The notes below the pieces were generated by a model, which was not told where the DNA came from, searched no databases, and saw only the letters and a list, made by a program, of their open reading frames with translations. Below, one piece after another: positions 15,040 through 44,806 of a DNA stretch of 64,000 bases (position 1 is its first letter; every line of letters starts with the position of its first letter). Origin of the DNA: Zhongshania aquatica (GTDB lineage Bacteria; Pseudomonadota; Gammaproteobacteria; Pseudomonadales; Spongiibacteraceae). The stretch covers positions 124,001 to 188,000 of the forward strand of contig NZ_JANZNQ010000006.1 in the NCBI RefSeq assembly GCF_027257955.1, in the 5' to 3' direction. Made by a program: the position numbers and the translations under genes.

Positions 15040-17220
15040 TTATTTCGTTTTGCGGGGCGGCAATCCCGTGTGCTGAGTTAGTATTCGGCGACCTTTTCCG
15101 TTTTTGGGCGTCCAGTTTGCTGGCTGGCGCGGCGGCACTAAGTGCTTTTTGCCGTAACCGATAAGATCTTTGCGTCCCATGCTGAGTAGTGATTCTCTTA
15201 TTGACGGCCAACCCTCGGGGTCATGGTAGCGTAAATAGGCCTTGTGCAGGCGTCGCTGTTTTAATCCTTTTGCACTCACCACGTCCTCGCTGGTACGAGA
15301 TACTTTTTTGAGCGGGTTTTTGCCGGAATAATACATGGCCGTCGCGTTCGCCATGGGGGATGGATAAAACGCCTGAACCTGATCGGCACGGAAGCCATTG
15401 TTTTTCAGCCACATGGCGAGATTCATCATGTCTTTGTCGCTGGTGCCTGGATGCGCCGCGATAAAGTAGGGGATCAAATATTGCTCTTTTCCTGCCAGTT
15501 TTGAATATTTGTCGAACATGGCTTTGAACTTGTCATAGCTGCCCATGCCGGGCTTCATCATTTTTGACAGCGGCCCGTCCTCGGAATGCTCAGGCGCTAT
15601 TTTTAAATAGCCCCCAACATGGTGAGTCACAAGCTCCTTTACGTATTCTGGGGTTTCTATTGCTAGATCGTAACGTAGCCCAGATGCGATAAGTACTTTT
15701 TTGACGCCATCTAATGAGCGAACGTCTCGGTACAAATCGATTAGTGGTGTTTGGTCGGTGTTTAGACTTTTACAAATACCGGGGTACACGCAGGACAATC
15801 TGCGGCAGCGCTGTTCAATTTCAGTACTCTTACAATTCAGGCGCCACATATTGGCGGTGGGGCCGCCAAGGTCTGAAATTACCCCGGTAAATTCTGGGGT
15901 TTTATCACGGATTTTTTCTACCTCTTTCACGATTGACTCGTGCGAGCGGCTTTGAATTATGCGGCCTTCATGTTCTGTAATTGAGCAAAAACTACAGCCA
16001 CCAAAACAGCCTCGCATGATATTTACCGAGAAACGTATCATGTCGTAGGCAGGTATTTTTGCCTTACCGTAAACTGGATGTGGTTTGCGCTGATAAGGCA
16101 GCTCAAATACCCAGTCTAACTCTTCGGTGGTTAGTGGAATTGGTGGTGGGTTCAGCCACACTTCTTGATCACCGTGACGCTGAACCAACGCGCGCGCATT
16201 ACCTGGGTTAGTTTCTAAGTGAAGAACTCGCGCTGCATGGGCATAGTTTACTGGGTCGTCTTTCACGACGTCGTAATCGGGTAAACGAATAACGGTTTTT
16301 GCGGCGTCAGTTCCAGCTTTGCGTGCCTGCAAAGGGTCTATTATGCGAACGGTTTGAATGTCTTCTACCGTTTTCGCAACAGCTTCTTCATCGTTTTTCT
16401 TGCAGCTTTCTGTCGCACTGGTATCGACATAGGGGCTGGTGATAGGGTCGACTTTGCCGAGTTGATCGACGCTTGCCGAATCAATGACCGTCCAGCCGGC
16501 TGGAATTTCTCGGATTACATAGGCGGTGCCGCGCAAATCGGTAATAGTGTCGATAGCATCGCCACGGCCGAGCCGATGGGCAACATCGATAATGGCGCGC
16601 TCCGCATTCCCGTAAAGCAGCAAATCAGCTCGGGAATCTAGCAGAACAGAACGACGAACTTTGTCGCTCCAGTAATCGTAATGCGCTATGCGGCGAAGAC
16701 TGGCTTCTATCGAGCCAATAATAATCGGTGTGTCTTTATAGGCTTCGCGACAGCGTTGCGAATAGACAATGACGGCTCGATCCGGACGTTTTCCGCCCTC
16801 GTTGTTTGGTGAATAAGCATCGTCATGACGCAGGCGACGATCCGCTGTATAGCGGTTGATCATAGAATCCATATTGCCGGAAGCAACGCCAAAGAACAGA
16901 TTGGGCTGGCCTAGCTGCTTGAAGGGCTCAGCCGACTGCCAGTCAGGCTGCGATATAATACCCACCCTAAAGCCCTGTGCTTCAAGAACTCGGCCGATGA
17001 CTGCCATGCCAAAACTGGGATGATCGACATAGGCATCGCCGGTCACAATAATAATATCGCAACTGTCCCAGCCTAAAGCTTCCATCTCGGCTCGAGATGT
17101 TGGCAGGTAGGTCGCGGTGCCGAAACATTCGGCCCAATATTGGCGATGACTAAAAATTACTTTGGGTGTTTGCATAACTGATGACATGGTGCTGACGCAG
17201 AATTCTGAATGAGGAGGCAT
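15040..17220 (-). CDS. YgiQ-family radical SAM protein
   Basis: 726 residues, the length of the YgiQ group. An N-terminal region (about 1-300) resembling B12-binding/YgiQ N-terminal domains has [17 protein letters not shown] and [20 protein letters not shown]. The radical SAM core carries CFGGCSFC (CX3CX2C), which binds the 4Fe-4S cluster, followed by SITEHEGR. A conserved C-terminal YgiQ domain ends in a basic tail. The exact start is uncertain: several ATGs (17220, then MSSVM, MQTPKV) are in frame with no clear ribosome site. Substrate and product of the family are unknown to me. Confidence 0.93.
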
Positions 17221-39043: not shown

Positions 39044-40966
39044 TCACATGGGTAGAGCAGGTTTAACATTGGGGTGAACAATTCGCACGGTCTGCACATC
39101 GAGTGGTCTGTGTTGAATTTCACCTCTTAGCCAAGCGCCGCCATCTGGATCTTTTAAAATACTGCCGACACCCCCCGGTGATTTGACTGTCAGGATCTGC
39201 AGCGTTTGCGTACTTAAGTCCTCTGCGTCGGGAAGGCTAAGGCAGTCGAGTGCGGCTTTTGTGCTAATAACATCAAAGTTAAATTCATAATCTAGTTCAC
39301 TGGCCTCACCACGGCGGGGAGAGAGTGCGCGATCCAATGCCAATATGTTCCGACTAGCTGAGATCAAATGTGTATTTTCTGTTTGTTCCAGATAATGCAC
39401 TATTTCCGTTTCCAGTAATGAATACAAGCGTATTGGATCGGCCAAAATGGTGGTGAAGATATCGGCTCGGCTTTCATACACCGTCATTCTATCTTGTAGG
39501 TTTAATGAGGGCATATCTGTTTGGTAGTGAGTGCAAACGGCGCGCAGCAGTGCGCGAAGCAGCGGTGCAGTGGTGATGCTGTTGTGTAACGCTAAATAGC
39601 GTATGGTTAATGGAATCAGATGGCCGTGGGCAAAAAGAATGTGCGCGGTAATCAGAAAATAGCCTTCAATTCCCTCGTTTCTGTCGAAGGTATGACAGGC
39701 AACAACATATTCTCCCTTCGCTTTTCCGTAGCCAGCTACTGGGATTGTTTCAATTTCATATTCTATGCGTTTTTCATAAAACTCTGTGCCGGGCAGCAAG
39801 GTATAAGCAAATATATTGAGATTAGGGAATGTTCTTAGAAGCTGATCTAAATTGGTTTCAAAGTCGGCAAGATTATCGCCCGGTAATCCCCAAATAAGTT
39901 CGGCGGCGATGGGTACACCTTCTTCAGCCATTTGGCGCGCGATGGGCTCATATTTATTTGCCGCCATGTTTTGACGATTGCTCAGCTCCAACGCCAAGGG
40001 CGTTAGTGTTTGCAGCGCTAATTGGTAGTGGGGGAGCAGTCCATTTTTATGTAGCAGCAGCACTATTTCCTGAACCCGAGGGCTGTGCTTTTTAGACCAA
40101 GACGTTGCAAAGCTACTCGGTAATCCGGTCTTTTCTTTTAGCTCACAAATAAGCTGAGCTTTTGCAAGATCTTCTTTGAGCGCGCCAAAATTAGAGTCTG
40201 CTAACCAGATATCTTTGATACCAGCATCAACAATTCGGTGCCAGTCACTGCGTACTCGCTCCATAGAAAATTGATACATTTTAGACCCTATGGCGCCAGT
40301 GCCCCATTCACAGAATGCGCATTTAAAGGGGCAGCCGCGGCTTGTTTCGTAGGATATGGAATCGTAGAGCGGTTTACCTTGGGCATCGCACAGATCGATA
40401 ACATCGAGTGGAGAAGGCAGTTCATCAAGCAGCTTTCTACGCTGGCGTTCTGCTGTTTTAGTAATGACGTTGTTTTCAAGATAGGCGATTCCCATGATAG
40501 TGTGCCATTCATTACGCGAGGGGTTGTCTAGAATCTCCTGAAACGTTGTCTCGCCTTCGCCGAGGATAATAATGTCGATAGGGTCTTCGCCCAGATAGTC
40601 TTCGGCTTGCTGTACATGCGGTCCGCCTGCGATACACAGGATATCGGGGCAGTCCGTTTTGATATTGTGGATTAGGTCGAGGAATTCGGCGGCATTCCAT
40701 GTGTACATGCTAAAGCCAATAATAGCCTTTTCATTCTGTAAACATGCCTTTTTAATCAGCGGTAAATAGTGCTCCTGCCAGCGCTGTTGCCAAGTAACAA
40801 TGGCGTTTTCATTTTTAAAATGAATTAACTCGATATGATAGCTGTCATTATTTTCGCCGTATTTTTCATAGTAGGCTTTTAAACCGCCGGTGGTTGTTGG
40901 TGCTGCCCAAAATTGATCTGAGTCCATACTAAACAGCAGCACAGGCGTGGCAGGTTTACCCTTCAT
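39044..40966 (-). CDS. Cobalamin-binding radical SAM protein of unknown substrate
   Basis: 640 residues: an N-terminal B12-binding Rossmann domain (about 8-160, with GGPHVQQAEDYLGEDPIDII and LGEGETTFQEIL; no DXHXXG seen), then a radical SAM core with CPFKCAFCEWG (cluster cysteines 212, 216, 219), and a long helical C-terminal domain (about 430-640). This is the class B architecture of methylases and related enzymes; the Trp after the third Cys (CXWG) is seen in some natural-product and lipid enzymes. It is transcribed opposite to its flanking genes and has no obvious biosynthetic neighbours. Product not known. Confidence 0.88.
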   Translation of the reverse strand: MKGKPATPVLLFSMDSDQFWAAPTTTGGLKAYYEKYGENNDSYHIELIHFKNENAIVTWQQRWQEHYLPLIKKACLQNEKAIIGFSMYTWNAAEFLDLIHNIKTDCPDILCIAGGPHVQQAEDYLGEDPIDIIILGEGETTFQEILDNPSRNEWHTIMGIAYLENNVITKTAERQRRKLLDELPSPLDVIDLCDAQGKPLYDSISYETSRGCPFKCAFCEWGTGAIGSKMYQFSMERVRSDWHRIVDAGIKDIWLADSNFGALKEDLAKAQLICELKEKTGLPSSFATSWSKKHSPRVQEIVLLLHKNGLLPHYQLALQTLTPLALELSNRQNMAANKYEPIARQMAEEGVPIAAELIWGLPGDNLADFETNLDQLLRTFPNLNIFAYTLLPGTEFYEKRIEYEIETIPVAGYGKAKGEYVVACHTFDRNEGIEGYFLITAHILFAHGHLIPLTIRYLALHNSITTAPLLRALLRAVCTHYQTDMPSLNLQDRMTVYESRADIFTTILADPIRLYSLLETEIVHYLEQTENTHLISASRNILALDRALSPRRGEASELDYEFNFDVISTKAALDCLSLPDAEDLSTQTLQILTVKSPGGVGSILKDPDGGAWLRGEIQHRPLDVQTVRIVHPNVKPALPM

Positions 40967-41189
40967 AATGTTGTTCCGGCCGATTGGCGTTTTATTGATG
41001 TTGTATGTGTATAGTTATTGGTTTGTTACCTGTTTTAAGAGTACCAGTGTTTAAAGGGGGCGCCAATTGTCGAGTGAGAATGTTACAAAAGCGTTAGGAA
41101 TGAATGAGCTAGGCCGTTCGGGTGAGGTGCCGTGAAGGATGTTGGGGCATGATTGCCGAAATAAATAATTTAGCAGGGCAGTATCGATT

Positions 41190-41618
41190 ATGGTTGAAGC
41201 GCATTTAACGCGAGATTTTAATTTTCCAGCGAGTAAGATCTGGGGGCTATTAGAAAATTTTGGCGACATCAATTGGGCGCCAGGCATCGATAAAATAGAA
41301 ATTATCGGTGAAGGAATTGGAATGATTCGCCGATTGCATATTACCGGCATGGATCCGATAGATGAGCAACTGACTGCACAGGACTCGTCGGCAATGACTT
41401 TTGCTTATGATATTCCGCGAGGCATTCCAATGCCGGTAACGGATTATTCAGCCAATGCGAAAGTGACTGCGCTCGATGACACGCGCTGTCGTGTAGATTG
41501 GTATGGTCGTGCAGAGCCAACGGGCGTGAGCGAGGAAGACGCTATTGCGATGATCGCTGGCGCCTATGAAATGTTGCTACAGTGGATTGACGATTGGTTT
41601 TCGGCCAAAGGTAACTAG
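41190..41618 (+). CDS. SRPBCC-fold (START/Bet v1-like) protein
   Basis: 142 residues with the SRPBCC pattern: FPASKIWGLLENFGDINWAPGIDKIEIIGEG, GMIRRLHI, a central beta sheet, and the long C-terminal helix AYEMLLQWIDDWF. Such proteins bind hydrophobic ligands in a cavity; some are polyketide cyclases. It is divergent from the radical SAM gene, separated by 223 bases, and could share regulation, but no direct link is seen. Confidence 0.85.
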   Translation: MVEAHLTRDFNFPASKIWGLLENFGDINWAPGIDKIEIIGEGIGMIRRLHITGMDPIDEQLTAQDSSAMTFAYDIPRGIPMPVTDYSANAKVTALDDTRCRVDWYGRAEPTGVSEEDAIAMIAGAYEMLLQWIDDWFSAKGN

Positions 41619-44032: not shown

Positions 44033-44806
44033 TCATGAGCTGGGTAACATGCTGAGCCTCATCCCGGCCTGCCAGCCACCGTCCACTAAGAACTCAGCAC
44101 CAGTGGAATAGCTGCTTTCATCTGAGGCTAAAAACAAGGACATATTTGCCACTTCTATAGGGAGACCAACCCGTGGAAGAGCGTGGTTTACGTAAAACGC
44201 ATTGTCTTGTTCTGATGGCTCAGTTTTGCCTTCGGCACCATGCATCGCTGTGAAAATACCACCGGGATGGACGGTATTAACTCGGATGTTATAGGGCCCA
44301 AGTTCAATGGCGGCTGACTTGCTAAGTCCTCTTACGGCCCACTTGCTCGACGCATAGGCCGAGAGCCCATTTTTTGCTTGCAGTCCGTCGATGGAAGAAA
44401 TGTTAATGATAGATCCGCTACCTGCCTTTTTCATCGGTTCGATTGCGGCGCGAATGCCGAGGTAGGTGCCAAGTTGGTTTATTTTGATGACGCGCATATA
44501 GTCATCACCGTCTGAGTCCGCAATCGACGAGGCGTGCAGAATGGCGGCGTTATTTACTAGAATATTGAGTGGGCCAAGGGATTCTGCTTTTTCAACTAGA
44601 CGTTGCCAGTCAGCTTCATTTGAAACGTCTGTGTGAACATAATGCGCATTTTTGCCGATTGAAGCGGCCAGTGCCTCTCCAGCCTCGTCAAGAATGTCGG
44701 CGATAACTACTTGTGCGCCATGTTCAGCAAACAATTTTGCCGTTACTGCGCCCATCCCGCGTGCAGCGCCCGTGATAATTGCTACTTTTCCCGCAAGTCT
44801 GCTCAT
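44033..44806 (-). CDS. Short-chain dehydrogenase/reductase
   Basis: 257 residues, classical SDR. The cofactor motif TGAARGMG is at 12-19, followed by Asp37 at the end of beta2, which points to NAD(H). NNAA is at 85-88, the catalytic Ser in NISSIDG (137-138), and YASSK with Tyr151 and Lys155. The set resembles 3-alpha(20-beta)-hydroxysteroid or other secondary-alcohol dehydrogenases; the substrate is unknown. The gene is divergent from a lipoprotein gene, with a 26-bp near-palindrome in the gap. Confidence 0.93.
   Translation of the reverse strand: MSRLAGKVAIITGAARGMGAVTAKLFAEHGAQVVIADILDEAGEALAASIGKNAHYVHTDVSNEADWQRLVEKAESLGPLNILVNNAAILHASSIADSDGDDYMRVIKINQLGTYLGIRAAIEPMKKAGSGSIINISSIDGLQAKNGLSAYASSKWAVRGLSKSAAIELGPYNIRVNTVHPGGIFTAMHGAEGKTEPSEQDNAFYVNHALPRVGLPIEVANMSLFLASDESSYSTGAEFLVDGGWQAGMRLSMLPSS

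Follow-up and report, generated by a model that had tools for sequence, protein, structure and literature searches.

A cobalamin-dependent radical SAM subfamily associated with steroid-type genes in Zhongshania aquatica and other Gammaproteobacteria

We analyzed a 64,000-nucleotide stretch of DNA from Zhongshania aquatica (assembly GCF_027257955.1, contig NZ_JANZNQ010000006.1, positions 124,001 to 188,000), referred to as the window, which lies on contig C74 of a 4.49 Mb genome, G000 (labels beginning with G, C and L are ours and denote genomes, contigs, and loci or their proteins). An earlier note on this DNA had pointed to two divergent open reading frames, one for a B12-dependent radical S-adenosylmethionine (SAM) enzyme and one for an SRPBCC protein, and both are present, with their start codons separated by 223 bp. 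The genes and elements of the locus are as follows.

39044..40966, minus strand: cobalamin-binding radical SAM (rSAM) protein of 640 amino acids (aa) with an ATG start, from Pfam, NCBIfam and PDB sequence searches and from homologues
40532..40726, minus strand: B12-binding domain, residues 81-145, Pfam PF02310 at 8.9e-11, above the cut-off
40697..40699, minus strand: codon of Trp90, the counterpart in the alignment of TokK Trp76 and CysS Trp75, which lie under the cobalt
40310..40333, minus strand: CX3CX2C iron-sulfur cluster motif, C212, C216 and C219, then W221, from a motif scan
39845..40351, minus strand: radical SAM domain, residues 206-374, Pfam PF04055 at 5.7e-10, above the cut-off
39107..39682, minus strand: C-terminal, mostly helical domain, about residues 429-620, from an AlphaFold2 model and the near-full-length alignment to TokK and CysS
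41112..41127, plus strand: conserved intergenic element GGCCGTTCGGGTGAGG, kept between the rSAM and SRPBCC genes in relatives
41190..41618, plus strand: SRPBCC (Polyketide_cyc2) protein of 142 aa, Pfam PF10604 at 2.2e-18

The B12-binding domain and the radical SAM domain with its CX3CX2C motif bear out the class B architecture that had been proposed, as does the C-terminal domain, which is mostly helical in an AlphaFold2 model built from nine sequences (mean predicted local distance difference test score, pLDDT, 66). The cluster motif reads CPFKCAFCEW from C212 onward, and the tryptophan said to follow it is there, at a corrected position two residues past the third cysteine (C219-E220-W221). 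The gene is not a chance reading frame, because 17 further genomes among the 21 searched in the family have a homologue (63-84% identical), which makes 18/21 with the window's own genome. G000 holds a single full copy of the enzyme, its other match being 25% identical over residues 190-394 only.

A sequence search of the PDB returned TokK (4e-39) and then CysS (3.2e-32) as the closest solved relatives, and Foldseek matched the model to the same two enzymes over almost all of its length (1.7e-18 to 2.4e-17, 633-670 alignment columns), with TokK the best PDB match by either route. The best VIA-align Z values were 13.4 for TsrM, 13.2 for TokK, 12.9 for CysS and 12.6 for the B12 domain of OxsB; Z was 12.0-13.2 for the TokK and CysS entries, with a root-mean-square deviation (rmsd) of 15-17 there and of 15-19 overall. 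These four Z values lie so close together that the fold alone is no basis for choosing among the enzymes, and because confidence in the model is low (pLDDT 66, rmsd 15-19) the placement of its domains is unsure. Rows of either program ranked under the cobalamin and radical SAM enzymes were disregarded as B12-domain or chance matches.

TokK, a carbapenam C6 methylase (PDB 7kdx/7kdy), shares with the rSAM protein the order of domains, the CX3CX2C motif with a following Trp and a Trp under the cobalt, whereas identity in the structural alignment is ~19-20% and no carbapenem genes were recognized near the rSAM gene. CysS, an iterative methoxy methylase (PDB 9n1b-d), shares the three-domain layout, a full-length fold match and Trp75, the counterpart of Trp90 (residue equivalences to TokK and CysS were counted by hand from the PDB sequence-search alignment). 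TokK Trp76 and CysS Trp75 sit under the cobalt and replace a ligand (PMC13331322, PMC12667779). We found that Trp90, C212, C216, C219 and W221 are invariant in 36/36 orthologues, and that the DXHXXG motif is absent from the B12 domain in all 36, its sole match falling at residue 607 of L062.

These searches reached no characterized subfamily, in agreement with the earlier note, which saw in the enzyme the window's best candidate for an undescribed activity. The best NCBIfam model was that of the KedN5-family C-methyltransferases (NF033712; 1.5e-85, residues 69-444, with rSAM residues past 444 unmatched), and we rejected a KedN5 equivalog because the score of 287.7 bits falls far short of the cut-off of 700. 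Polycyclic terpenoids are the substrates of HpnR and HpnP, two class B radical SAM methylases, and the models for HpnR (TIGR04367) and HpnJ do match the rSAM protein, weakly, at 43.5 and 50.6 bits, far under their cut-offs of 650 and 577.6; HpnR was therefore rejected, and no hopanoid genes were recognized in the rSAM surroundings read. In a quick maximum-likelihood tree of 50 sequences, the 36 orthologues form one group on a long stem, with 100% support by the Shimodaira-Hasegawa-like approximate likelihood ratio test (SH-aLRT). The input left out L060 (a near-copy of L061), L072 (which shares its contig with L010) and any fragment of <= 500 aa. The group meets L203 (a plasmid protein annotated as KedN5 family), L204 (Tistrella) and L208 (Sinorhizobium) in an unresolved fork, so that a KedN5-annotated protein is among the nearest rows, with a long, fully supported branch between. 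Since several outer rows sit on very long branches, only the unity of the orthologue group is reliable. We conclude that the enzyme belongs to a real, so far unnamed subfamily of TokK/CysS-type enzymes.

Among the 293 genomes sampled from the order, 31 carry the rSAM gene (52-84% identical, G000 included), a count that leaves out G150, the carrier of a 30% paralogue only; two of the matches have limits, G003 being a fragment at a contig end and G110 being aligned from residue 68 onward. The class sample of 369 genomes added one further orthologue genome, G337 (56% identical), and four more with 31-34% relatives only. By their rSAM proteins, the nearest named relatives are Zhongshania (82-84% identical), followed by Spongiibacter and kin; the cultured species Spongiibacter marinus and Zhongshania aliphaticivorans each have an orthologue. 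Another set of KedN5-like radical SAM proteins, only distantly related (~30% identical; L081, L082, L083 and L084), occurs in some genomes of the order, and in L082 the gene is preceded by one that by eye resembles a cytochrome P450.

The residues for a reaction cycle modeled on TokK and CysS are in place (PMC13331322, PMC12667779). In such a cycle SAM would methylate cob(I)alamin, held base-off over Trp90, and a second SAM would be cleaved at the 4Fe-4S cluster on C212/C216/C219 to yield a 5'-deoxyadenosyl radical. This radical would abstract hydrogen from a substrate carbon that is not activated, and the substrate radical so formed would receive the methyl group from methylcobalamin. The substrate should differ from that of CysS, because Trp188 and Trp271, which touch the carbonyl of the CysS substrate (PMC12667779), are replaced here by Ser203 (28 Ser, 7 Ala and 1 Cys among the 36 orthologues) and Ala287 (Ala in 36/36).

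A link of the rSAM enzyme to steroids is moderately supported, in the first place by its direct neighbors in other families. In G064 (L010/L072, one contig), G188 (L054), G074 (L060) and G181 (L061), the gene next to rSAM belongs to a single protein family, that of a ketosteroid isomerase homologue. Ketosteroid isomerases are the closest solved relatives of the G188 protein (PDB 1ocv, 2.9e-25), which keeps their catalytic residues Tyr14, Asp38 and Asp99; the homologues of other loci match the G188 protein at 2.4e-27 to 7.5e-24, and those scanned with Pfam (L060 and L010) are SnoaL-like. The adjacency occurs in three families and in two arrangements, divergent in two of the families and on the same strand just upstream of rSAM in the third, and the arrangements of the different families may share an ancestor. 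At 2 in 3000 per genome, the chance of the isomerase adjoining rSAM in 3/10 families is ~4e-8, or 7e-7 when 25 genomes are counted. At L070 (G337), the rSAM end adjoins two acyl-coenzyme A (CoA) dehydrogenase-type genes.

Homologues of the SRPBCC gene also lie beside steroid-type genes. In G074 (L165) and, judged by coordinates, in G181, a homologue that is 44% identical has a ketosteroid-1-dehydrogenase homologue on either side, and these dehydrogenases have 3-oxosteroid 1-dehydrogenase 7p18 as their best PDB match (1.4e-125). Others, 33-34% identical, have the isomerase as their neighbor in G023 (L123) and in G066 (L168), a genome with no rSAM match. A thiolase encoded in the L123 stretch scores 608 with the steroid 3-ketoacyl-CoA thiolase model NF005889, above the cut-off of 515, and matches FadA5 in the PDB at 3.5e-147. 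In the window's own genome, an isomerase homologue is found on contig C41 by acyl-CoA genes, and contig C19 carries an IpdA-type CoA transferase that matches PDB 6co6 (3.3e-70). The latter gene is clustered with genes for CoA-transferase, enoyl-CoA hydratase, acyl-CoA dehydrogenase and thiolase, and 30 kb away on the contig there is a ketosteroid-1-dehydrogenase homologue.

Co-occurrence across the 293 genomes of the order provides the second line of support. Ketosteroid-1-dehydrogenase homologues (E <= 1e-70) were found in 28/31 rSAM genomes and 56/262 others (p 3e-14), and the isomerase (E <= 1e-10) in 25/31 and 42/262 (p 4e-13), with p-values that ignore the relatedness of the genomes, a point to be held against them. 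The dehydrogenase association persists when counted by genus (13/14 with rSAM compared with 27/104 without) and when the window's family is left out (18/20 rSAM genomes compared with 55/260 others). IpdA is present in 25/31 rSAM genomes, missing in G017, G031, G064, G088, G137 and G200, and was found in 1/11 chosen genomes without rSAM; the one is G013, which has the dehydrogenase, and the other 10 had been picked for lacking it. Polyhydroxyalkanoate (PHA) synthase, taken as an unrelated control at E <= 1e-100 (82/128 matching genomes kept), showed no positive association, with 4/31 rSAM genomes and 78/262 others at that threshold and 9/31 and 119/262 at E <= 0.001.

We considered the idea, which goes back to the earlier note, that the rSAM and SRPBCC proteins form a working pair, in which SRPBCC would carry or present the substrate. 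The SRPBCC gene occurs in 16/21 family genomes, it is adjacent and divergent to rSAM in 15/18 of those that bear rSAM (the G003 contig stops at this place), and in 12 of these 15 the element GGCCGTTCGGGTGAGG is conserved between the two genes with 0-1 mismatches; the element was not found at that place in G002, G014 and G019. Across the order, SRPBCC at E <= 1e-20 (26/54 matching genomes) is present in 16/31 rSAM genomes and 10/262 others, and among the dehydrogenase genomes in 16/28 with rSAM compared with 10/56 without. On the other hand, the pair belongs to a block, TmcA-HIT-rSAM-SRPBCC-CinA and beyond, that keeps its order across the family, and across the order sample SRPBCC was never seen next to rSAM in the 20 genomes from other families that bear rSAM, with some of their rSAM contigs measuring just 3-4 kb; eight of the 20 carry an SRPBCC homologue, always on another contig. 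Each gene also occurs without the other: G013 (L085) has SRPBCC at its usual place and no rSAM, whereas G017 and G001 keep rSAM and lack SRPBCC. Among dehydrogenase genomes, the enrichment shrinks to 7/18 compared with 9/55 (p 0.06) once the window's family is left out. The two genes stay together in most of the family, and since the whole block is syntenic there, each gene is found alone and adjacency was seen in 0/20 genomes elsewhere, the pairing by itself is weak evidence of a shared function. We consider a working pair unlikely. A hydrophobic ligand for SRPBCC, hinted at in the same note, may nevertheless be right, and stays plausible because SRPBCC homologues adjoin ketosteroid dehydrogenase or isomerase homologues in G074, G181, G023 and G066.

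The element GGCCGTTCGGGTGAGG is perhaps a local promoter or operator element. As a marker of a steroid regulon it was rejected, with 24 genome matches at <= 3 mismatches compared with 59 for the reversed control, and one copy with 2 mismatches near the isomerase (L122:4373) falls within the beginning of another open reading frame and was put down to chance. The window genes scanned near the pair (TmcA, HIT and CinA homologues, citrate synthase and similar) include no biosynthetic neighbors, as had been stated before. A short-chain dehydrogenase gene at 44033-44806, ~3 kb from the rSAM gene, is syntenic in most family loci read, and judged by sequence its nearest PDB entries are those of Rv2002 and of 3-alpha,20-beta-hydroxysteroid dehydrogenase. 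The window has a second radical SAM protein at 15040-17220, of the YgiQ type, with Radical_SAM_N and DUF3362 domains.

Several observations weigh against a steroid substrate. The addition of a methyl group is an odd step for a degradative pathway, and with Trp188 and Trp271 of CysS replaced here there is no indication of pantetheine binding. Most rSAM loci outside the isomerase-adjoining families show, by eye, no steroid-like direct neighbor, no shared promoter motif was found in the genome scan with GGCCGTTCGGGTGAGG, and the dehydrogenases tested score ~500-562 bits against NCBIfam cut-offs of 788-789, so that they are family members and not proven equivalogs. Within the 84 dehydrogenase genomes, the isomerase occurs in 25/28 with rSAM and 41/56 without, a difference that is not significant (p 0.16). 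The steroid thiolase model NF005889 was rejected as a discriminator, with 26/80 genomes over the cut-off (13/31 rSAM genomes and 13/49 others), and it was passed in 0/13 genomes of the window's family. Three rSAM genomes, G064, G137 and G200, are without IpdA. G017, a complete genome of the same genus with an intact rSAM gene, has no match for dehydrogenase, isomerase, IpdA or SRPBCC, and the same four are lacking in G031 and G088 (81 and 86% complete). Finally, a rhodanese-domain gene (Pfam Rhodanese), presumably SelU/MnmH (tRNA 2-selenouridine synthase), adjoins rSAM in L030 and L055 and is separated from it by one gene in L054, a recurrence in three genomes of two families, L030 and L055 being from the same one.

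With TmcA as a neighbor in the window, the rhodanese/SelU-like gene at L030, L054 and L055 might suggest that the enzyme modifies RNA or protein. The adjacency of TmcA belongs, however, to the syntenic block of one family, no RNA-binding domain is among the Pfam matches of the rSAM protein, and models of RNA-modifying radical SAM enzymes score far lower than the KedN5 model; RNA modification was rejected on these scores (MiaB/RimO, only 38.5 bits), and we regard such a role as highly improbable.

A rival reading is that the enzyme resembles TokK and CysS in tailoring, by methylation, a carrier- or CoA-bound metabolite unrelated to steroids; its partner genes would be scattered, and the steroid genes would simply reflect how these lineages live. 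In favor of it, G017, G031 and G088 have the enzyme without steroid markers, and the solved enzymes closest to it tailor natural products (PMC12667779). In addition, ~6 kb from rSAM in G031 (L056) there is a pair of genes for an AMP-ligase and a methyltransferase, and the window's genome has homologues of both (L122; 61 and 75% identical over the available parts) at ~7 kb from its isomerase gene. This explanation is countered by the isomerase that directly adjoins rSAM in three families and by the dehydrogenase association, which survives by genus and without the window's family; in addition, no conserved biosynthetic cluster was recognized at the rSAM loci read. We consider a non-steroid substrate to be the less probable case, and doubtful. 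The AMP-ligase and methyltransferase genes occupy L056:1-3419 and L122:2-2818 (the ligase is 934 aa in L056 and incomplete in the L122 stretch, which also encodes an iron-containing haem-oxygenase-like protein), and the pair is possibly a small mobile biosynthetic cluster. G017, G031 and G088 are also three of only four rSAM genomes with PHA synthase at E <= 1e-100.

Taken together, we suggest, at a probability of roughly one half (0.48), that the protein is a radical SAM enzyme which depends on cobalamin, is of the TokK/CysS/KedN5 type and has as its substrate, in steroid-degrading Gammaproteobacteria, a steroid or an acid derived from one, possibly in the form of the CoA thioester. A steroid substrate is proposed because of the genomic associations with steroid-type genes. 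Steroid side-chain degradation runs through CoA thioesters, and this, with the pantetheinylated substrates of TokK and CysS, makes up the two grounds for proposing the thioester form.

The enzyme might also act on a steroid without methylating it (ring contraction, oxidation, desaturation or rearrangement), and cobalamin would then have a different function. A catabolic pathway is not expected to add a methyl group on balance, and OxsB, BchE and ThnL are non-methylating members of the superclass (PMC13331322). Nevertheless, the methylases TokK and CysS likewise have Trp under the cobalt, whereas OxsB has Asn with waters (PMC13331322), and the nearest tree rows include a protein annotated as a KedN5-family methylase; we think a non-methylating role quite unlikely.

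If methyl transfer to a steroid is the reaction, then the clade could be one of radical SAM steroid C-methylases, by which steroid-eating bacteria would methylate an unactivated carbon in the steroid nucleus or in a side-chain CoA thioester, either letting unusual marine or 19-nor steroids into the normal pathway or making a new methylated steroid. We put this forward as a speculative proposal that is rather unlikely as it stands. In the literature compared, the only cobalamin-dependent C-methylation of a steroid that we met is that by the estrogen methyltransferase EmtAB, which is cobalamin- and SAM-dependent and operates in a degradative pathway (PMC7448270). In contrast to the rSAM protein, EmtAB is not described there as a radical SAM enzyme; EmtA is related to MtmB, and the corrinoid protein EmtB is separate (PMC7448270).

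Within openly licensed PubMed Central (PMC) papers, we found no report on this rSAM subfamily, none of a radical SAM enzyme in steroid catabolism and nothing on steroid use by Zhongshania. Sponge-isolated Spongiibacteraceae do grow on cholesterol (PMC5790920). Named strains in culture are available among the host genera (Zhongshania, Spongiibacter and kin), which makes gene deletion and feeding experiments practicable. If the proposed function is true, radical B12 methylation would extend from the tailoring of antibiotics and other natural products, where the closest solved relatives act, to steroids, and a subfamily kept by steroid degraders would bear on the breakdown or remodeling of sponge- and plankton-derived steroids.

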